This document shows, piece by piece, positions 34,109-42,055 of a DNA stretch of 64,000 nucleotides. Every line of letters starts with the position of its first letter. Within the stretch, counting starts at the first letter, position 1. Location: contig NZ_JACCCG010000003.1 of the NCBI RefSeq assembly GCF_013410955.1, forward strand, positions 186,001 through 250,000, written 5' to 3'. The notes below the pieces were generated by a model that had not been told where the DNA came from, did no database searches, and saw nothing but the letters and a program-made list of their open reading frames with translations. The stretch comes from Microbacterium sp. AK009 (lineage in GTDB: Bacteria; Actinomycetota; Actinomycetes; Actinomycetales; Microbacteriaceae). The translations under genes and the position numbers were made by a program.

Positions 34109-34596
34109 GCACCCTCGACGACCTCCTCGCCGATGCCCGGGCCCGACTGGTCGGGGTCTCCCGCGAGGGGCTGGGCGAACTGCTGCCGCCGCGGCGCCTG
34201 CTCGGCATCCCCCGCGCGCCCCGGATCGTCCGCAGGGGATCCGCCTGGCATCTCGGCACGCTCCTCCTCACCGATGACGGGCTGCTGGCGACGGGCGACA
34301 TCCTGCGCGCCCGCGCCGAAGTGCGCCGCGGCTTCACCGCGGAGTCGCAGCGGCAGCGGGCGCAGCTCGCGGCAGCGGCCCGGCGGGGCGGATTCGCCGA
34401 AGGCGAGACCGTTCACATCGGCTGGCTGTGGCTCGACCTCGACGCGGTCGGGCGCGGCGCGGCATCCGGTCCGGTCAGGGTCGTGGACGGCGAACCGCGG
34501 GTGCGGTGGAGCGCCGCCGGGGGATACGTTCCGCTCGCGGGCTACCTCGACGAGCGGATCGGACTGCTCGTCGATCCTCCCGGAGGGGCGACCTGA
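34105..34596 (+). CDS. Hypothetical protein coupled to antiporter
   Basis: This 163-residue protein begins at GTG 34105, overlapping the antiporter stop (GTGA), so it is translationally coupled. It is soluble, with a helical N-terminus ('TLDDLLADARARLVGV'), a strand-rich middle ('SAWHLGTLLLTDDGLLATG') and a C-terminus with 'GGYVPLAGYLDERIGLLVDPP'. I do not recognise the family. Association with the antiporter could indicate a regulatory subunit, which is a guess from gene order only. Confidence 0.6.
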   Translation: MSTLDDLLADARARLVGVSREGLGELLPPRRLLGIPRAPRIVRRGSAWHLGTLLLTDDGLLATGDILRARAEVRRGFTAESQRQRAQLAAAARRGGFAEGETVHIGWLWLDLDAVGRGAASGPVRVVDGEPRVRWSAAGGYVPLAGYLDERIGLLVDPPGGAT

Positions 34597-34611
34597 GCGT
34601 CGCTGGAGGTG

Positions 34612-35355
34612 TCAGGAGGCGCCGAAGTGCGCGCCGAAAGCTGCCAGCAGACGAGCCGGCTCGGTGACCGGGGTCGCGAGCACCCGGCCGGCGATGACGT
34701 CGTAGTCGCGGGCGTCGTAGTACCCGTCGTTGCGGTAGACCTGCATGCGCTCGGTGAAGGCCCGCGGGGTCAGCTCCGGGTGGAACTGCGTGGTGTAGAG
34801 GCGGTCGCCGACGCGGTAGGCCTGCACCGGGCATGCGTCGTTCGCGGCGAGATGCACCGCGCCCGTCGGCAGGACCGCGGTGCCCTCCTTGTGGCCGGTC
34901 AGAGCCGAGAACCTCGGTGCGAGCGGGGCGAAGAGCGGGTCGCCCTGCGCGGCGGGCGTCAGCGACACCGCGGTCGGGCCGGCATCCTCGGGGAATCCGC
35001 GGCTGACCTGGCCGCCGAGGAGGCGCGTGACCACGCTGATGCCGTAGCAGGTGAACATCGCGGCGAGGGAGTCGCCCCCGGCTGCGGCGGCGGCGACCCT
35101 TTCGAGGTCGCGCTCGACGCGGCGCTGCACGTCGGTCTTGGTCGACTCCGGGTCGACGACGTTGAAGGGGCTTCCGCCGACGACCACGGCGCGGTAGGAC
35201 TCCAGTGCGTCATCCGGCAGGGGCGAACGAACCAGATCGTGGCGGTCCATCCGCTCGATGCCGACGCCCATCGCCTCGCGGAAGGAGGCGTATTCGGCCT
35301 CCGCGGCCGCCTCCTGGGGCCGCGCGCAGAGGTAGAGCAGATCGGCGGAGGTCAC
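34612..35355 (-). CDS. Class I glutamine amidotransferase-like protein
   Basis: This 247-residue protein has a class I GATase fold. The nucleophile cysteine lies in 'MFTCYGISVV' and the histidine-glutamate pair in 'YTTQFHPELT'. It has no synthetase domain, so it resembles stand-alone GMP-synthase-like amidotransferases whose natural substrate is usually unknown. GTG 35355 has TAAACT six bases upstream, giving a leaderless start. It is divergent from the sigma factor gene. Confidence 0.8.
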   Translation of the reverse strand: MTSADLLYLCARPQEAAAEAEYASFREAMGVGIERMDRHDLVRSPLPDDALESYRAVVVGGSPFNVVDPESTKTDVQRRVERDLERVAAAAAGGDSLAAMFTCYGISVVTRLLGGQVSRGFPEDAGPTAVSLTPAAQGDPLFAPLAPRFSALTGHKEGTAVLPTGAVHLAANDACPVQAYRVGDRLYTTQFHPELTPRAFTERMQVYRNDGYYDARDYDVIAGRVLATPVTEPARLLAAFGAHFGAS

Positions 35356-35433
35356 CCGTGAAGTTTAGGTCGGCCGAGGATGTATCACACGCCCGGGTGG
35401 TGCCTCTGTTCGGGTGTGGCCACAATGGGCGCT

Positions 35434-36051
35434 ATGACGCATGCTGACGCGGGTGCCGGGGTCGACCCTGCCCGCCCCCTGCGTTGGGAGCTCGCCGCCA
35501 CCCTGTTCCAACGGTGGCGCGCCGGTGACCGCAGCGCGATGGACGACCTCGTCCGACTCATGACCCCGACGCTGTGGCACGTCGTCCGCGCCTACGGCGT
35601 CGACGCGGCGCTGGCGCAGGACGTCGTGCAGACGACCTGGCTGACCCTGGTGCGCCGGCACGAATCGATCGTGGAGCCGCTGGCGGTATCGGGGTGGCTC
35701 ACCACCACCGCCCGCCGGGAGGCGTGGCGGGTCGGGCGTCAGCAGCGCCGCGCCGACCCCACCGAGGTCGACGACCTCGAACCGCACCTCCCGGCCCAGG
35801 AGTCGGCCGAGGAGACCGCGTTGCGCGACGAGGCATCGCGGAGACTCTGGCTCGCCGTGACCCGGCTCAACGAACGGTGCCAGCGCCTGCTGCGCGTGGT
35901 CGCCTTCGACGAACGACCCGATTACGCCCGCATCGCGACAGACCTCGCGATGCCGATCGGCTCCATCGGTCCGACGAGGCAGCGGTGTCTCGGAAAGCTG
36001 CGGGCGATCCTCGCAGAGGAAGGAGAGGACGGCAGAGATGACGACGGATGA
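35434..36051 (+). CDS. ECF-like RNA polymerase sigma factor
   Basis: This 205-residue protein has sigma region 2 ('AMDDLVRLMTPTLWHVV', 'AQDVVQTTWLTLVRR') and region 4 ('LNERCQRLLRVVAF', 'YARIATDLAMPIGSIGPTRQR'), without regions 1 and 3, the layout of ECF sigma factors. No anti-sigma factor with a membrane anchor follows. ATG 35434 is used; CACAAT sits seven bases upstream and could be a weak -10. It overlaps the next gene by 14 bases. It starts a gene set ending in a subtilase and a CHAT protein, so it probably controls that cassette. Confidence 0.85.
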   Translation: MTHADAGAGVDPARPLRWELAATLFQRWRAGDRSAMDDLVRLMTPTLWHVVRAYGVDAALAQDVVQTTWLTLVRRHESIVEPLAVSGWLTTTARREAWRVGRQQRRADPTEVDDLEPHLPAQESAEETALRDEASRRLWLAVTRLNERCQRLLRVVAFDERPDYARIATDLAMPIGSIGPTRQRCLGKLRAILAEEGEDGRDDDG

Positions 36052-36508
36052 CTCCGCCGATGCCCGTCTGTTCGCACGGCTTCGCGCAGTGTGGGAGGAG
36101 GTCGACCCGATGCCCGCGGGCCTGGTCGACCGGATGGTCGCCGCCGTGGCGGTCGAAGACCTCTCCCGCGAGTACGCGCTGCTGACGCTCGTGGAGGGAA
36201 CGCTCGCTGCTACCCGCGGCGACGCCGACACGGCCACGCTGCAGTTCAGCGACGGGCGCACGAACGTGCTGCTCCACCTCTCCGTCGCCGACGACGGCCG
36301 GCGCCGGGTGGACGGCTGGGTCGACGCCGAACCACTCTCGATCCGGCTCGTCCAGGACGCGCGGGAGTGGACGACGGATGCCGGCGAGCACGGCCGGTTC
36401 GCCTTCGTCGACGTCCCCGCGGGGTTGACCCGCCTCCGCCTGTCGCTTCCCGCCGCGCCGGGGGAGACCCACCCCCGCGAGTTCCAGACCCCGCAGTTCG
36501 AAATCTGA
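36038..36508 (+). CDS. Small protein linked to sigma factor and subtilase
   Basis: This 156-residue protein is of unknown function. The N-terminal half is helical ('FARLRAVWEEVDPMPAGLVDRMVAAV'-like, acidic), and the C-terminal half has strand patterns ('RRVDGWVDAEPLSIRLV', 'GRFAFVDVPAGLTRLRLSL') resembling a carboxypeptidase-regulatory/transthyretin-like beta sandwich. It overlaps the sigma gene by 14 bases, which implies coupling and possibly control of sigma activity or recognition by the protease. No membrane segment is seen. Confidence 0.6.
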   Translation: MTTDDSADARLFARLRAVWEEVDPMPAGLVDRMVAAVAVEDLSREYALLTLVEGTLAATRGDADTATLQFSDGRTNVLLHLSVADDGRRRVDGWVDAEPLSIRLVQDAREWTTDAGEHGRFAFVDVPAGLTRLRLSLPAAPGETHPREFQTPQFEI

Positions 36509-36513
36509 CCGTG

Positions 36514-36531
36514 CCGCGCCGTGCGGCGCGG
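36514..36531 (+). terminator. GC hairpin before the subtilase gene
   Basis: CCGCGCC (36514-36520) and GGCGCGG (36525-36531) form a seven-base stem with a four-base loop, in the 54-base gap before the subtilase gene. It may weaken readthrough from the sigma-factor transcript. Confidence 0.35.
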
Positions 36532-36562
36532 CCTCGCCCCCTGATCGAGGAGACGCCTCACC

Positions 36563-38218
36563 ATGGTCCGACCCGACGGAACCCCTGATTGGCGCGATCG
36601 CGTCGACGCCGCCCGCCCCCGAGGGGTGCCCCTGGACCCCACCAGTGAACGCGTCGAGGGGGTGCGACCCTATCCGACCGCCTACGACCCCGACCACCTC
36701 CTCCTCACCGACGATGAGCTGCTCGATGAAATCCTCTCGATCCTCCGCGGCGCCGCCGGCGACTTCGGGTGGGGCGTGCGACTGGAGACGGTGCGGGGTG
36801 AGCGACTCACCGATGAGGAGGCGCGGGAGCGCGCGGGCACCGCGCGACGCGAGCTGGGCCTTCCCCTCGTGCTCGTCGCCCGGATCTTCCCCGACCCGCA
36901 GCCAGACCGCGACGATGAGCCGGTTCCCCCGATCGATGCCTGGCGGCTGCTGCAGCGGGCGCGCGGGCGTTCCGGGAAAGGACTGCCCGGGGTCGGGCTC
37001 GACCACGTCATCTCCATCGATCCCTACGGCTCGACGAACCCGTACGGCTCGACGAACCCCTACGGCTCGACCAACCCGTATGGCTCGACGAACCCGTACG
37101 GGTCGACGAACCCCTACGGGTCGACGAACCCCTATGGGTCGACCAACGCCCCCGGTCCCGGCTCCTACGCCTACCCCGGCTCCGGTGGGCGCGAGGTCGT
37201 GTCGTACATCGGAGATCCGCCCCGCCGCGACGACGACTCGATCCGGGGGCGCCGCCCCGTGGTCGCCTTCATGGACACCGGATGCGGGCGGCACGCGTGG
37301 CTGCCCGACAGCATCGTCGATCGCCACCTCCACAACGGCGGCGAGCCGGTCGGCGTCGTGGGAGCGGCCACCGACCCGGAGGAGATCGGCGACGTGTCCG
37401 GCCCCTTCGACGGCTTCCTCGACCAGGCCGCAGGTCACGGCACCTTCGTCGCCGGGGTGATCCGGCAGATCGCGCCCGACGCCGATCTCATCTCCATCCG
37501 CGTCGCCGACAGCCAGGGGACCCTCCTCGAGGGGGAGTTCCTCGAGGCCGTGCGAGCGGTGGCCGAACTCGTGATCCGCTACGCCCGCGGTGAGGGCGGC
37601 CGGCCCATCGACGTGCTCAACCTCTCGCTCAGCTACTACCACGAGACCCCCGAGGACGGTCAGTTCGACCAGACCCTGGTGACCTACCTGGTGGCCGCGC
37701 GGCGCCACGGCTGCGCGGTGGTGTGCTCGGCCGGCAACGATGCGACCGATCGCCCCGCCTTCCCCGCGGCCCTCTGGCGATGGCCGGATGCCGACTTCAC
37801 GGTGGAGGACCCTGACGACGCCGCACCGCACCTCTCGGTCGGCGCGCTCAACCCCAATGCCAGGAGCGTCGCCCTGTTCAGCAACGTCGGCGACTGGGTC
37901 CGGGTGTACGCCCCGGGTGTCGCGGTGGTCAGCTCCGCGCCGCCCCTCAACGGCGGCATCCAGGCCGGGACGCGCAACGACCGTTACGGCCTTCGCCGCG
38001 AGACGATCGACCCCGATGACTTCACCGGCGGTTTCGTGATCTGGAGCGGCACCTCCTTCGCCGCCCCGCACATCGCCGGAGCGCTCGCCGAGATGGTCGG
38101 TGTGAAGCTCATGGACGGTTCGCTCGACGAGAAGCCCGCACCGCGGGTGAAGGCGCTCCGCAAGGCCGGGGCGCAGCTCGAGAAGGAATGGAAGGGCACG
38201 ACGCGGGCGCCAGCCTGA
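36563..38218 (+). CDS. Cytoplasmic S8 family (subtilisin-like) serine peptidase with PYGST repeats
   Basis: This 551-residue protein has a helical N-terminal region (1-150), a tandem repeat (153-194) of one DPYGST and six NPYGST units, and a subtilase domain with catalytic D238 in 'VVAFMDTG', H292 in 'GHGTFVAGV', oxyanion N392 in 'CSAGND' and S498 in 'SGTSFAAPHIAG'. All three catalytic residues are present. There is no signal peptide or propeptide of the secreted type, so it likely acts inside the cell. A GGAG site precedes ATG 36563. It lies between the sigma-linked protein and the TPR-CHAT gene, making a two-protease set. Confidence 0.9.
   Translation: MVRPDGTPDWRDRVDAARPRGVPLDPTSERVEGVRPYPTAYDPDHLLLTDDELLDEILSILRGAAGDFGWGVRLETVRGERLTDEEARERAGTARRELGLPLVLVARIFPDPQPDRDDEPVPPIDAWRLLQRARGRSGKGLPGVGLDHVISIDPYGSTNPYGSTNPYGSTNPYGSTNPYGSTNPYGSTNPYGSTNAPGPGSYAYPGSGGREVVSYIGDPPRRDDDSIRGRRPVVAFMDTGCGRHAWLPDSIVDRHLHNGGEPVGVVGAATDPEEIGDVSGPFDGFLDQAAGHGTFVAGVIRQIAPDADLISIRVADSQGTLLEGEFLEAVRAVAELVIRYARGEGGRPIDVLNLSLSYYHETPEDGQFDQTLVTYLVAARRHGCAVVCSAGNDATDRPAFPAALWRWPDADFTVEDPDDAAPHLSVGALNPNARSVALFSNVGDWVRVYAPGVAVVSSAPPLNGGIQAGTRNDRYGLRRETIDPDDFTGGFVIWSGTSFAAPHIAGALAEMVGVKLMDGSLDEKPAPRVKALRKAGAQLEKEWKGTTRAPA
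37019..37144 (+). repeat. In-frame 18-bp tandem repeat (PYGST) in the subtilase gene
   Basis: Seven consecutive 18-base units encode one DPYGST and six NPYGST. Copies differ only at third codon positions (CCG/CCC, TAC/TAT, GGC/GGG, ACG/ACC), so the peptide repeat is kept by selection or is recent. The tract joins the helical N-terminal part to the catalytic domain. Confidence 0.95.
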
Positions 38219-38240
38219 TCTTCTCGGCGTCGGCCCGCGC

Positions 38241-38318
38241 GCAACGGCGGGGATGGCGTGCGACACGCCGCCCCGCGGCATCCGTACCCGGCGTGTCGGC
38301 CCCCGGCCCCGCCGTTGC
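38241..38318 (+). other. Nested hairpin between subtilase and CHAT genes
   Basis: GCAACGGCGGGG (38241-38252) pairs perfectly with CCCCGCCGTTGC (38307-38318). Inside, CGACACGCC (38261-38269) pairs with GGCGTGTCG (38290-38298). The structure fills most of the 129-base gap. It may terminate the upstream transcript, since the CHAT gene could have its own start site, or control expression of the CHAT protein. Confidence 0.7.
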
Positions 38319-38347
38319 GGACCCCCACGTCTGCGCGAAGATGAAGG

Positions 38348-40798
38348 GTGGCCACCAGGAGCGCCGATGATCTGCACCGACTCGCCGTCGAGCTGTGCAT
38401 CTCCGGACGCTACGCGCGCGCGCTGCGCGTGCTCGCGCAGGCCTCTGGCCGCACCGGTGATCCCGACCTCCTCGCGCGCATCGAGGGGACCCGGGCCCTG
38501 GCGCTGCAGCGCACCGGGTCGCCGGCCGAGGCCGAGGAGGTGCTGCGAGAGGCGCTGTCGGCTCGGGGGTTGACCGCGCACACGCGCGCGATCCTGCGGG
38601 GTCAGCTCGGGGCGCTGGCCATGTACGGTGGACGGCTCGACGAGGCCGAGCGCCTCTTCGGCGAGGCGACCGCTTCTCTCGACGACGCCGATCCGCTCGC
38701 CTCCGCCCGGGTGCGGATGAATCGGAGCCTGGGCCGGATGCAGCGGCGAGACCTCGGTGGAGCCGCCGCGGACGCCGAATGGGCGGCCACCCGTTTCGCC
38801 GCTGCCGGCCTCGCGACCGACGAAGCGCACGCCCGCCACAACCTCGGCTACATCGCCCTGCTCTCGGGCGACCTCGTCACGGCGCTGGACGCGATGCTCA
38901 CCGCGAGGCCCGCCGCGGCGACGACCCCCGTTGCGGGAGCGGTGGGCGACATGGACAGGGCCGAGGTGCTGCGGGAAGCCGGGCAGACCACCGAGGCCGA
39001 GCGCCTGCTCGAGCGCGTCGCGGCCGTCTTCGGCGCCCACCGGATGCCGCAGTCGCGGGCGGAGGCGGAGTTCCAGCTGGCGCGATCGCTCCTGGCCCAC
39101 GACCCCGAGCGTGCGCGGAGGGTCGCGCTCGCCGCATCCCGCAGATTCCAGCGCCTCGGGAACGAGGTCTGGGCACACCGGGCGGAGGCGATCCGGTGGC
39201 GCGCCCAGCTGCAGTCTCCGCGCGCAGCGTCGGGGGAAGGAACGACCCGACGGGTCGAGGAGGTCGCGGTTCATCTCACGCGAGCGGGCTTCCGCGGCGA
39301 GGCGACCGCCCTGCGGCTGACGGCTGCAGTCGCCGACCCCGCGCTCGACGGGCGCCGCCTGAGGGTCGGTGACGACGCCCCCCTCGAGGTGCGCCTCATC
39401 ACGCAGGAGGTGAAGGCGGCGCGTGCTGCGCGGCGCGGTCGGCACGGTGAGGTGCGCCGACACGCGGGTCGGGGCATCGACACCCTGGCGTCGTGGACGG
39501 GCACGTTCGGGAGCCTCGATCTGCAGACTTCCGCCGCCATGCACGGCGCGCGCCTCATGTACGCGGGCCTGGACGCGGCGTTGCACTCGCGGGATCCGGA
39601 GATCGCGTTCGCGTGGGCCGAGCGCGCCCGGCATCTCAGCCAGCAGTCGACACCGCTCCGCCCGCCCCCGGACCCGCAGCTGGCCGCCGAGCTGGCCGAA
39701 CTCCGCACCATCCGCGCGGAGCGACCGGGGATCGATTGGCTCGACGATCCGCGCGCGGCCGAGCTGCGCGAGCGCGCGCGTCGGCGGCAATGGGCGGGAA
39801 CCCTCGTGGGCGAGGCGTCGGAGCGCACGACCCTGCAGACCGTGCGTGAGGTCCTCGGCGCCGATACCGCCGTGCTGAGCTTCCTCTACACCGGAGCCGA
39901 ACTCGGCGTCCTGGTGTCGGACAGCGAAGGCGACAGTCTGGTCCGGCTCGACGACCCCGACCGGGTCGGCCGGCTGCTGTCAGGGCTGCGGGCGGATCTG
40001 GACATGTCGGCGGCGGTGCGGTGGGGTCCGATGGTCTCGGTTGTGCAGGCCGCCCTGCGGACCCGACTCGCCGAGCTCGACGCGGGCATCCTCGATCCCG
40101 CGCTCGCACGCACGGATCGCCGGCGACTCGTGCTCACCGTTCCCGGCATCCTCAGCGGGGTGCCGTGGGGGATGCTGCCGTCGATGGAGGGACGGGTGTT
40201 CACGACGGCGACCTCGGCGACGCGCTGGGTGCGCGCCATGCGCGCGACTCCCGCCGTCCCCGGCAGGGGGACCGGATTCGTCGTCGGACCGGGGGTGCCG
40301 CGCGGGGAAGAGGAGGTCGCCCGGGCGGGGTCTGCCTGGTCGGCATCGGCGACTCTCCTGGCGGACCGGGCCACGGTGCGCGGGGCGGCCGAGCTCGCCG
40401 CGTCATCCGGTGTCCTCCACGTCGCCGCGCATGGCCGCCACACGGCCGACAACCCGTTGTTCTCGGGCTTGGAGCTCACCGACGGCGTGCTCTTCGGGTA
40501 CGACATCGATCTGATTCCCGATGTGCCCCGCGTCGTGGTGCTCTCGGCGTGCGAGGTCGGGCGGTCCTCGGTGCGGTGGGGGGAGGAGGCGCTCGGCATG
40601 GCGCGCATCTGGTTGCACGGCGGGGCGGACTCGGTGGTGGCTGCGCCCGTCCGGGTGGCCGACGACGATGCGTGCGAACTGCTGGCGGTGATGCACGAGG
40701 GCCTCGCCGCCGGTGAGGCCCCGGCGGAGGCGCTCGCCGCCGCGGCCCGGCGGACGGGGATTCGCGCGCCTTTTCAGGTACACGGCCGTGGGTTCTAG
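38348..40798 (+). CDS. TPR-CHAT protein (caspase-like peptidase)
   Basis: This 816-residue protein has helical TPR-like repeats over residues about 1-440 (Ala/Leu/Arg-rich pairs such as 'ADDLHRLAVELCISGRYARAL') and a C-terminal CHAT domain, a bacterial relative of caspases/separases. The catalytic dyad is visible: H695 in 'HVAAHGRHTADNP' and C735 in 'VVLSACEVGRS'. CHAT proteins cleave proteins and are effectors in defence or cell-death modules, for example the TPR-CHAT subunit of Craspase. GTG 38348 is the start. It lies 129 bases after the subtilase gene, across a strong hairpin. Substrate and trigger are unknown. Confidence 0.9.
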   Translation: MATRSADDLHRLAVELCISGRYARALRVLAQASGRTGDPDLLARIEGTRALALQRTGSPAEAEEVLREALSARGLTAHTRAILRGQLGALAMYGGRLDEAERLFGEATASLDDADPLASARVRMNRSLGRMQRRDLGGAAADAEWAATRFAAAGLATDEAHARHNLGYIALLSGDLVTALDAMLTARPAAATTPVAGAVGDMDRAEVLREAGQTTEAERLLERVAAVFGAHRMPQSRAEAEFQLARSLLAHDPERARRVALAASRRFQRLGNEVWAHRAEAIRWRAQLQSPRAASGEGTTRRVEEVAVHLTRAGFRGEATALRLTAAVADPALDGRRLRVGDDAPLEVRLITQEVKAARAARRGRHGEVRRHAGRGIDTLASWTGTFGSLDLQTSAAMHGARLMYAGLDAALHSRDPEIAFAWAERARHLSQQSTPLRPPPDPQLAAELAELRTIRAERPGIDWLDDPRAAELRERARRRQWAGTLVGEASERTTLQTVREVLGADTAVLSFLYTGAELGVLVSDSEGDSLVRLDDPDRVGRLLSGLRADLDMSAAVRWGPMVSVVQAALRTRLAELDAGILDPALARTDRRRLVLTVPGILSGVPWGMLPSMEGRVFTTATSATRWVRAMRATPAVPGRGTGFVVGPGVPRGEEEVARAGSAWSASATLLADRATVRGAAELAASSGVLHVAAHGRHTADNPLFSGLELTDGVLFGYDIDLIPDVPRVVVLSACEVGRSSVRWGEEALGMARIWLHGGADSVVAAPVRVADDDACELLAVMHEGLAAGEAPAEALAAAARRTGIRAPFQVHGRGF

Positions 40799-40989
40799 AA
40801 AACTTCCGCGCGGCGTGTATCACGGCTGCCTCGCGCCGCTCCGTCACTGTGAAGCGGCAGTGAGTGCGGTCGGCCGAAGCCCGACCGGGGGGCACTCAGG
40901 ATCTGCCGGGGGGCGCGCTCCCGCGGGGCGTGAAGATCCATGCTGCTTCCAGGGGTGTCGCGAGGGTTTCGGTTCGCGGCACCCCTGTC

Positions 40990-41601
40990 TCACGTGCGCG
41001 ACGAACGGGCGCTGCGGCCGCGGACGATGCCGATGAAGGTCTGGATGTGCGCCGCGACCTCGTCGTCGGGCGGATGCAGCGGCCACGCCAGACCGACGGG
41101 TGACACAGGGCCGCCGATCAGCGGACGGAACGTCGCGTCACGGCGGTGGTGCAATCGCGCGAGCGACATCGGGACGATGACGATCCCGGCCCCGCTCGCT
41201 GCCGTGGCGATGGCGTCGGCCGTGTCGAGCGAGCCGTCCACGGCCGCCGCGACCGTTCCGGCGACCTCGATGCCGAGCACATCGTCCGACGGAGTGAAGA
41301 CGATCTCACCCGAAAGATCCTCTGAGCTCAACTCCTCCGCGACGCTCAGGTGGGACTCGGTGGACATGACGACGACGGCTATCTCGTCATAGAGGGGGAT
41401 GAGGTGCAGACCGTCCCTGTTGATGGGCTGACGAACGAGCGCCGCGTGCACATCACCGGAATCCAGGCGACGTCGCTGCTCTGACACCGAGATCGGCACG
41501 AGCTCGAGCGCGACCTGCGGCATCCTCTTGTTCCAGATCCCTATCCATTTGCCGGGGGTGGCGCCGGGAACGACGCCGAGGAGGAACGGCCGGCCAGTCA
41601 T
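40990..41601 (-). CDS. LysR-type substrate-binding domain protein lacking HTH
   Basis: This 203-residue protein matches only the effector domain of LysR regulators: 'LLGVVPGATPGKWIGIWNKR', 'GDVHAALVRQPI' and 'DAIATAASGAGIVIVPMSLA'. The N-terminal winged helix is absent and no remnant lies upstream, so it cannot bind DNA in the usual way. It may be a solute-binding protein or a modulator, or a decayed regulator. The hexapeptide-repeat gene lies upstream on the same strand, with 46 bases between them. Confidence 0.75.
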   Translation of the reverse strand: MTGRPFLLGVVPGATPGKWIGIWNKRMPQVALELVPISVSEQRRRLDSGDVHAALVRQPINRDGLHLIPLYDEIAVVVMSTESHLSVAEELSSEDLSGEIVFTPSDDVLGIEVAGTVAAAVDGSLDTADAIATAASGAGIVIVPMSLARLHHRRDATFRPLIGGPVSPVGLAWPLHPPDDEVAAHIQTFIGIVRGRSARSSRT

Positions 41602-41647
41602 GCGTTCAGGCTAGCGGCGGCGGGTGCGGCTTCCGCGCCGGCCGGGG

Positions 41648-42055
41648 TCATGCAGCCAGACGGAAGCCTCGCCGGTCCGTCGCGACGCGCTCGCCGTCGG
41701 CGATCGTCTCATCGTCACGGATGAGGGAGTTCACTGCGACCCGCGCGTTCGCGCCGATGTTCGTCCGGACGCCGATGCGGGCGCCGGCGCCGATGACGGC
41801 ACCGGGACCGACGTGGGCGTGAGGTGCGATGTGGGCTTCGGGGCCGATGAGTGCCTCCGCCTCGATCCACGCACCGCGTCCGACACGAGCGCCGGCCGCG
41901 ATCTGCGCGCCGGGTTCGACGTAGGCGCCGGCTTCGACGATGGCAGTCGGGTGCACCTTCGCGCCGTGGGCGATCAATCCGCGTCCGTTGACGTGCTTGC
42001 GGTAGCGGAGCGTCTCGCCCTGGTCGTTCTCGATGTCGACGTAGTTCTTACCCAC
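41648..42055 (-). CDS. Left-handed beta-helix (hexapeptide repeat) protein
   Basis: This 135-residue protein is built from hexapeptide repeats ([LIV]GxxAxI pattern), e.g. 'AHIAPHAHVGPGAVIGAGA', which form a left-handed beta-helix as in acyl/acetyltransferases. It is too short to hold a full transferase, so it may be a binding protein or small carbonic-anhydrase-like trimer. GTG 42055 is chosen because AAGGAGG lies five bases upstream; the frame extends 25 residues further but without support. Two operator-like repeats lie upstream, so it is probably tightly regulated. Confidence 0.75.
   Translation of the reverse strand: MGKNYVDIENDQGETLRYRKHVNGRGLIAHGAKVHPTAIVEAGAYVEPGAQIAAGARVGRGAWIEAEALIGPEAHIAPHAHVGPGAVIGAGARIGVRTNIGANARVAVNSLIRDDETIADGERVATDRRGFRLAA

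Follow-up and report, generated by a model that had tools for sequence, protein, structure and literature searches.

A conserved unit of four genes, encoding an extracytoplasmic function (ECF)-type sigma factor, a small protein, a cytoplasmic S8 subtilase and a TPR-CHAT caspase-like protease, was analyzed in a 64,000-nucleotide stretch of Microbacterium sp. AK009 (contig NZ_JACCCG010000003.1, positions 186,001 to 250,000 of the forward strand; hereafter the window, in which all coordinates are given). It is tentatively proposed, with somewhat less than even confidence, that the unit encodes a release relay of sigma factor, small protein and CHAT protease, with an added self-locked subtilase zymogen, twin promoters and an RNA output. 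This relay, modelled on the Csx29–Csx30–CASP-sigma system of type III-E, is our first choice because the parts list is the same, the sigma and small-protein genes overlap, and some lineages keep the sigma, small-protein and CHAT genes where no subtilase is detected.

In the proposed mechanism, the small partner protein would hold the sigma factor inactive until, upon a signal, the TPR-CHAT protease cuts or removes it, as seems likely, and the sigma factor is freed. The freed sigma factor would bind the twin promoter-like elements: from the one at 35381 it would transcribe its own operon, and from the one at 40816 a structured RNA, so that the response would amplify itself. The subtilase would join this as an extra protease arm, shut by its own prodomain, and its array of identical repeats likely serves as a lock between the predicted prodomain and the catalytic domain. 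The Pro-aromatic core of each repeat would resemble a short pseudo-substrate of the enzyme's own catalytic cleft, from which it would follow that the copies are identical and change together. Which protease cuts what is here a matter of inference. The features of the locus are as follows.

35381–35407, forward strand: promoter-like element 1, TGTATCAC-N15-CTCT, upstream of the sigma factor gene
35434–36051, forward strand: gene of the ECF-type sigma factor (205 aa; TIGR02937)
36038–36508, forward strand: gene of the small protein (156 aa; 14-base overlap with the sigma factor gene)
36563–38218, forward strand: gene of the cytoplasmic S8 subtilase (551 aa; Pfam E 4e-24)
36680–37015, forward strand: predicted I9-like prodomain of the subtilase (residues 40-151)
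37022–37147, forward strand: repeat array of the subtilase (7 x 18 bp, residues 154-195, unit PYGSTN)
37202–38110, forward strand: S8 catalytic domain (from about residue 214; D238/H292/N392/S498)
38348–40798, forward strand: gene of the TPR-CHAT caspase-like protease (816 aa with a GTG start; CHAT E 4e-20)
40816–40842, forward strand: promoter-like element 2, TGTATCAC-N15-CTCC, starting 18 nt past the last CHAT base
40848–40988, forward strand: predicted structured non-coding RNA (5' end inferred; terminator-like hairpin at 40950-40987)

Conservation of the gene unit

The original prediction, made from the window's letters, had described four genes on the forward strand with a 14-base overlap and two sets of catalytic residues; reading frames, domain matches and alignments bore out all of these, coordinates included. 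The in-frame array, the elements at 35381 and 40816 and the structured region after the second element are features that it did not contain. The closest relative is M. kunmingense (small protein 95%, subtilase 96%).

Starting from an alignment of 21 subtilases, 138 subtilase loci (L001-L138) were gathered, a set that includes the window locus three times, some genomes twice and some loci clipped by contig ends. Profile searches found the sigma factor in 132 of them, the small protein in 132, the S8 enzyme in 138 and the CHAT protein in 130. The order sigma–small–S8–CHAT on one strand is present in 94 of the 138 loci and, read from the opposite strand, in 24 more, the remaining 20 having other or incomplete layouts. 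Among 297 genomes of the order, the S8 family (E<=1e-50) occurs in 46 and the small-protein family (E<=1e-8) in 60, and every one of the 46 S8 genomes has the small protein (Fisher p 7e-42, uncorrected for kinship). The S8 family is found in 60 of the 119 genomes of the genus, and at the phylum level the small protein (E<=1e-5) is found in 37 of 396. In 40 wider, more distant stretches the layouts include S8–sigma–small–CHAT and a divergent CHAT or S8 gene, and the sigma and small-protein genes remain adjacent despite the reshuffling. The four genes thus form one conserved unit, as the original prediction had supposed when it called for a search for their co-occurrence across genomes: order and strand are reshuffled and the set is retained. 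The association itself is already known from the gene neighbourhood of the ECF54 sigma group, according to the portion of a review available to us (PMC8999054).

Fourteen genomes of the order have the small protein and no S8 match, and ten of them were inspected. Five of the ten carry sigma–small–CHAT with no S8 gene detected (one, L226, on a 6.7-kb contig), their genomes being S8-negative at E 1e-50; another (L231) holds the complete set with a divergent S8 gene, so the S8 threshold misses some cases. From the distant and the S8-less layouts, sigma–small is the core, with CHAT as its usual companion, and the S8 gene looks like an addition. Retention of sigma–small–CHAT where S8 is undetected places the CHAT protein nearer to the sigma factor and makes it seemingly independent of the subtilase. 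Two stretches (L176 and L177) each hold, within 20 kb, two S8 genes, two CHAT genes, two or three small-protein genes and one sigma gene.

Sigma factor, small protein and CHAT protease

The sigma factor matches TIGR02937 at 64.2 bits (cut-off 42.9), and a conserved in-frame ATG at 35425 may be its true start. No Pfam family reaches its cut-off with the small protein of the window, nor does any NCBIfam family match it; the predicted structure has two helices at the N-terminus and an Ig-like beta sandwich at the C-terminus. CarboxypepD_reg matches at E<=0.1 occur in 13 of 22 members of its family (best 1.7e-5), the window's own protein not being among them. On these 13 matches we read the "carboxypeptidase" protein of the ECF54 neighbourhood as the small protein seen here, and we infer that it is an anti-sigma-like partner of the sigma factor. 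The CHAT dyad proposed by the original prediction is real: the His is conserved in 102 of 102 sequences of at least 650 aa and the Cys in 101, with one gap. The dyad is H694/C734 in 815-aa numbering, or H695/C735 when the GTG start is counted.

Two known systems resemble this set of genes. Carboxypeptidase, subtilase and CHAT proteins are associated with the ECF54 sigma group, for which the review text at hand suggests proteolytic control with no anti-sigma factor (PMC8999054). The likeness is one of description, resting on the sigma domain (TIGR02937 above cut-off in an ECF-type factor) and on a neighbourhood of carboxypeptidase-like, subtilase and CHAT proteins that fits the wording of the review as far as available (PMC8999054); in contrast to the present locus, the accessible part of that review mentions no repeat array, twin promoter elements, structured RNA or anti-sigma partner. 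In the degradation model derived from this literature, the proteases would break the sigma factor down and so hold its level low until a signal stopped them. This model was proposed for ECF54 from gene neighbourhood (PMC8999054, from the same partial text), but it leaves the small protein and the zymogen design of the S8 enzyme without a role, and a constantly acting protease would presumably need no prodomain plus array; we regard it as quite unlikely here.

The second system is the type III-E relay, in which, according to the sections of the source at our disposal, Csx30 inhibits an ECF-like sigma factor and is cleaved by the TPR-CHAT protease Csx29, and CASP-sigma has sigma-motif matches within its own locus (PMC10028731). 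The window unit likewise has a TPR-CHAT protease with a His/Cys dyad, an ECF-like sigma factor, a protein encoded between sigma factor and protease, and putative sigma-motif matches in its own locus. It differs in the added subtilase zymogen and in its partner protein, which is small (156 aa) and has an Ig-like domain. PADLOC returned no Cas model at E 0.01 for the four cassette proteins, its matches to the subtilase being weak S8-domain matches. The Csx29–Csx30–CASP-sigma relay is a closer precedent than the gasdermin activation cited in the original prediction, which noted no gasdermin gene next to the unit (no search aimed at one was made here).

Promoter-like elements at both ends of the unit

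Counting k-mers in 121 regions ahead of the sigma gene picked out ATGTATCA, present in 79; GTATCA is present in 111 of 123 such regions (some possibly by chance) and missing in 12, and a CTC[CT] block usually lies 16 nt on from it. With the strict pattern of the element, 75 long loci gave 57 occurrences ahead of the sigma gene and 8 in other places, 56 of 72 loci had one within 120 nt past the CHAT gene, and the reversed-sequence control gave 0 in all. Since the element sits at both cassette ends, the sigma factor probably serves its own locus, in line with the original prediction that the cassette is under its own sigma factor.

In loci where the S8 gene comes first, the element precedes S8 (L175, L178, L179, L206 and L212; a loosened pattern, chance matches included), and the TGTATCAA form stands before S8 in L193, L197, L199 and L202 with the same loosened pattern. 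Other genes directly follow such an element: a second S8 gene (L210:4716-6011, reverse strand), a gene for an S8-VWA protein of 1166 aa (L110:858-4355; similar in L111), a VWA protein gene (L096:12791-14515) and a gene for a trypsin-like protein just below the Pfam cut-off (L178:11471-12949), which has C-terminal VTRDP repeats of its own. These extra protease and VWA genes hint at a protease-rich regulon.

The subtilase and its repeat array

The catalytic triad of the subtilase (D238/H292/S498), noted in the original prediction, is real: these residues and N392 are invariant in all 119 aligned sequences of at least 500 aa. By hydropathy the protein has no hydrophobic N-terminus, in agreement with the earlier view that it lacks a signal peptide. 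The AlphaFold2 model (predicted template modelling score 0.88) gives the prodomain and the catalytic domain high confidence and leaves the array between them disordered (predicted local distance difference test, pLDDT, ~40), and the enzyme is accordingly described as a predicted cytoplasmic zymogen with an I9-like prodomain. Intracellular subtilisins carry an inhibitory LIPY/F motif in their pro-peptide, [LVI]-[IFLV]-P-[YFH], in the excerpt of the source available (PMC6220982). The window enzyme shares with them a cytoplasmic setting, an intact triad and no signal peptide by hydropathy, together with a Pro-Tyr/Phe/His core in the stretch before the catalytic domain, which is inhibitory in intracellular subtilisins according to the same excerpt (PMC6220982); it differs in having a predicted full prodomain and tandem identical units in place of one short motif. 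Unlike pro-Tk-subtilisin and other secreted pro-subtilisins, it has no hydrophobic N-terminus, and a disordered array replaces their short junction.

The array lies between the last prodomain strand (GLDHV-like) and a conserved SYxxPGSGG stretch. In the window it reads as seven copies of NPYGST, and the closest named relatives (L033-L036) have 6 to 9 copies. Arrays are carried by 75 of 89 distinct subtilase sequences, the window included, with a period of 6 in 66, 7 in 6 and 8 in 3; five-residue units are also present among the protein matches. The 75 arrays comprise 59 distinct units in 2.8-12.7 copies (median 4.5). The unit contains P followed by F/Y/H/W in 63 of the 75 and P-x-aromatic in 5. 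This P-aromatic core is, we presume, more like a subtilisin site than the Craspase sites. One locus of Microbacterium (L039) has two S8-family genes with the unlike units PFGKTN and PFTRTN.

Adjacent copies were compared codon by codon, and over the 75 arrays 1238 pairs were identical, 631 synonymous and 23 nonsynonymous, a nonsynonymous to synonymous ratio of 0.036, where six simple mutation settings predict 2.46-3.91; since the array finder works on amino-acid identity, it under-counts strongly degenerate arrays and favours low nonsynonymous counts. With a ratio this remote from the prediction, the simplest interpretation is that selection acts on each copy. In the window array 11 of 36 adjacent codon pairs are synonymous and none nonsynonymous. 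These synonymous differences between copies rule out recent slippage as the sole cause of their identity.

The pace of unit change was compared with that of the catalytic domain in 128 array-bearing sequences of at least 500 aa, binned by catalytic-domain identity, with same-genome relatives kept in and pairs above 99.5% identity skipped. The share of subtilase pairs with the same unit was 0.66 at 85-90% identity (0.43 expected from the catalytic-domain rate), 0.33 at 80-85% (0.33), 0.34 at 70-75% (0.14) and 0.03 at 60-65% (0.05). The unit thus changes at about the pace of the catalytic domain or somewhat more slowly, which rules out a hypervariable array, and the copies of one array change in concert between species; despite its predicted disorder, the stretch evolves as a folded domain would, its copies in step. 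Its place, its Pro-aromatic core, its evolutionary pace and the LIPY/F precedent (PMC6220982, as excerpted) together suggest that the array acts as a lock.

It might instead be a structural or multivalent binding element, such as a turn-rich spiral, a scaffold or a docking site for the TPR domain, rather than a lock. Near-perfect copies whose number varies from 2.8 to 12.7 would suit a regular fibre or binding by avidity, many Microbacterium units contain Asn-Pro-x-Gly, and the few imperfect copies, judged by eye, tend toward the array ends. The disorder of the array in the AlphaFold2 model argues the other way, though single-chain models seldom reveal such binding, and one back-translated pattern of the window's unit gave 6 matches in its own genome, all within the array, so no second copy was found elsewhere by that pattern. 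We consider this alternative improbable. The same pattern search was the basis for setting aside the idea that the unit is a tag with a counterpart in some other protein encoded by the genome.

A further alternative is a direct relay of the kind envisaged in the original prediction, in which the CHAT protease would cut the subtilase within the array and so remove the prodomain, releasing a killing or clean-up protease, while the sigma factor would do no more than raise the amount of that protease. The array does sit right where prodomain and catalytic domain join, most loci have the S8 and CHAT genes side by side, and L104 has both with no sigma or small-protein gene found in 17.5 kb; Craspase orthologs also cleave non-conserved sites, in the part of the source available (PMC11106740). 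Yet CHAT is kept with no detected S8 gene in the five S8-less loci described above, and the units share little but P-aromatic, being less like the Craspase sites A|S, L|D and M|K given in that part (PMC11106740). Redundant cut sites would, moreover, be free to decay, yet a mere 23 of 654 differing codon pairs are nonsynonymous. A direct relay is therefore judged unlikely, and the sigma-release relay, with the array as a lock, is preferred.

The predicted structured RNA

In most loci examined, about 140 nt of structured, G-run-rich sequence with no clear gene come after the second element; GTATCA itself occurs within 200 nt past CHAT in 60 of 72 loci. For the window region (40848-40988) the predicted fold, made up of a closing stem, two hairpins and a terminator-like hairpin, has an energy of -83.6 kcal/mol (z -3.87), which none of 200 shuffles equalled. 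Fifty-nine regions were analyzed, counting loci with the element and leaving out L102, L103, L105 and L109, where candidate protein genes follow. A best hairpin scoring at least 29 at 109-185 nt past the element is present in 59 of 59, versus 6.7% of 600 random stretches from the same loci, and at least two GGGG runs precede the hairpin in 59 of 59, versus 8.2% of random stretches; the bias is toward G (GGGG 2.7 and CCCC 0.1 per region).

Relatives show compensatory changes in 7 of 16 pairs among 14 sequences and in 11 of 39 pairs among 18 sequences. In the 18-sequence set 94.5% of cells pair and 35 cells are changed on both sides, a number reached by 0 of 500 shuffles and by none of six slid structures (at most 8); the count of further pair types is not raised (421 of 500 shuffles as high). 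A closing stem general to all groups is weakly supported, as own arms average -22.7 kcal/mol versus -20.6 for cross-locus arms and 38% of cross pairs are as good. An RNA model, R1, built from one group, finds the M. oxydans-like group, and so was not kept as a model for all loci; under strict filters it occurs in single copy in 18 of 119 genus genomes, namely 17 of 60 with S8 and 1 of 59 without (G334, 44% complete, E 8.8e-4), and in 16 genomes it lies on the S8 contig, 2.6-10.5 kb away. A search of Rfam over 34500-42000 gave no match at the gathering score; the repeat array had one match to MIR4380 below threshold, which we attribute to chance. In the two Nocardioides loci L103 (12104-12400) and L109 (11994-12308), related proteins of ~100 aa follow the second element in place of the RNA; neither belongs to a clear Pfam family, the L109 protein matching PF22425 below the cut-off (E 0.0012).

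Weighing the proposed relay

Several observations count against the relay set out at the beginning. The binding of the small protein to the sigma factor is a predicted step, and the similarity of the small-protein family to anti-sigma factors is near nil, with CnrY matched in 1 of 22 members (E 0.044); the ECF54 review, in the text available, proposes the opposite, that the proteases degrade the sigma factor and that there is no anti-sigma factor (PMC8999054). The sigma–small pair also occurs with no S8 or CHAT gene found in the stretch, for example in L180, L182, L187, L189 and L195, and 4 of the 10 inspected S8-negative loci have just sigma–small within the stretch examined. In its own genome the relaxed pattern of the promoter-like element has 5 matches, two of them the cassette ends, versus 2 in the reversed control, so that the element is significant by position and not by count; of the other three matches, one falls within a long high-GC3 reading frame and two have different spacing. 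The finder reports no array in 14 of the 89 distinct subtilases, one of which is a fragment (L085) and others of which include large-genome class-level relatives; L014, L029, L030 and L032 have two loose unit copies despite the lack of a call. P-aromatic/His is missing from 12 of the 75 units, 4 of which have no P at all, and one good copy should suffice for a mere lock, yet all copies are kept. Finally, the window RNA matches R1 just in part and not as a whole (18.5 bits, E 0.32), so its assignment rests on position and fold.

A broader claim, which we hold to be doubtful, is that the unit represents a new class of protease-gated sigma switch combining a self-matched subtilase lock, a TPR-CHAT trigger and a near-private sigma factor. 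Within such a class, one evolving motif, held in about 3-12 near-perfect copies, would track its own active site, and the main outputs of the sigma factor would be its own operon and the G-run-rich structured RNA.

As far as our literature search goes, the predicted zymogen with its array, the twin promoter-like elements and the structured G-run-rich region are new; the search, covering titles and abstract openings, found no description of the repeat array or the structured RNA. If the sigma-release relay is true, it would extend the theme of a TPR-CHAT protease freeing a sigma factor to an actinobacterial unit with no CRISPR part among its four genes. The array would be a rare natural experiment, in which an inhibitory or binding motif is rewritten in concert across species beside an enzyme possibly fitted to it. 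Arrays could be exchanged between species to give matched and mismatched combinations, making protease self-recognition directly testable, and the twin promoter elements with the RNA would provide a ready reporter for the signal.

Flanking genes

The unit is flanked by two genes on the reverse strand. The divergent neighbour upstream (34612-35355) matches class-I glutamine amidotransferases (Pfam E 1.2e-5), and the gene facing the cassette downstream (40990-41601) encodes a LysR substrate-binding domain (Pfam E 2.9e-17).

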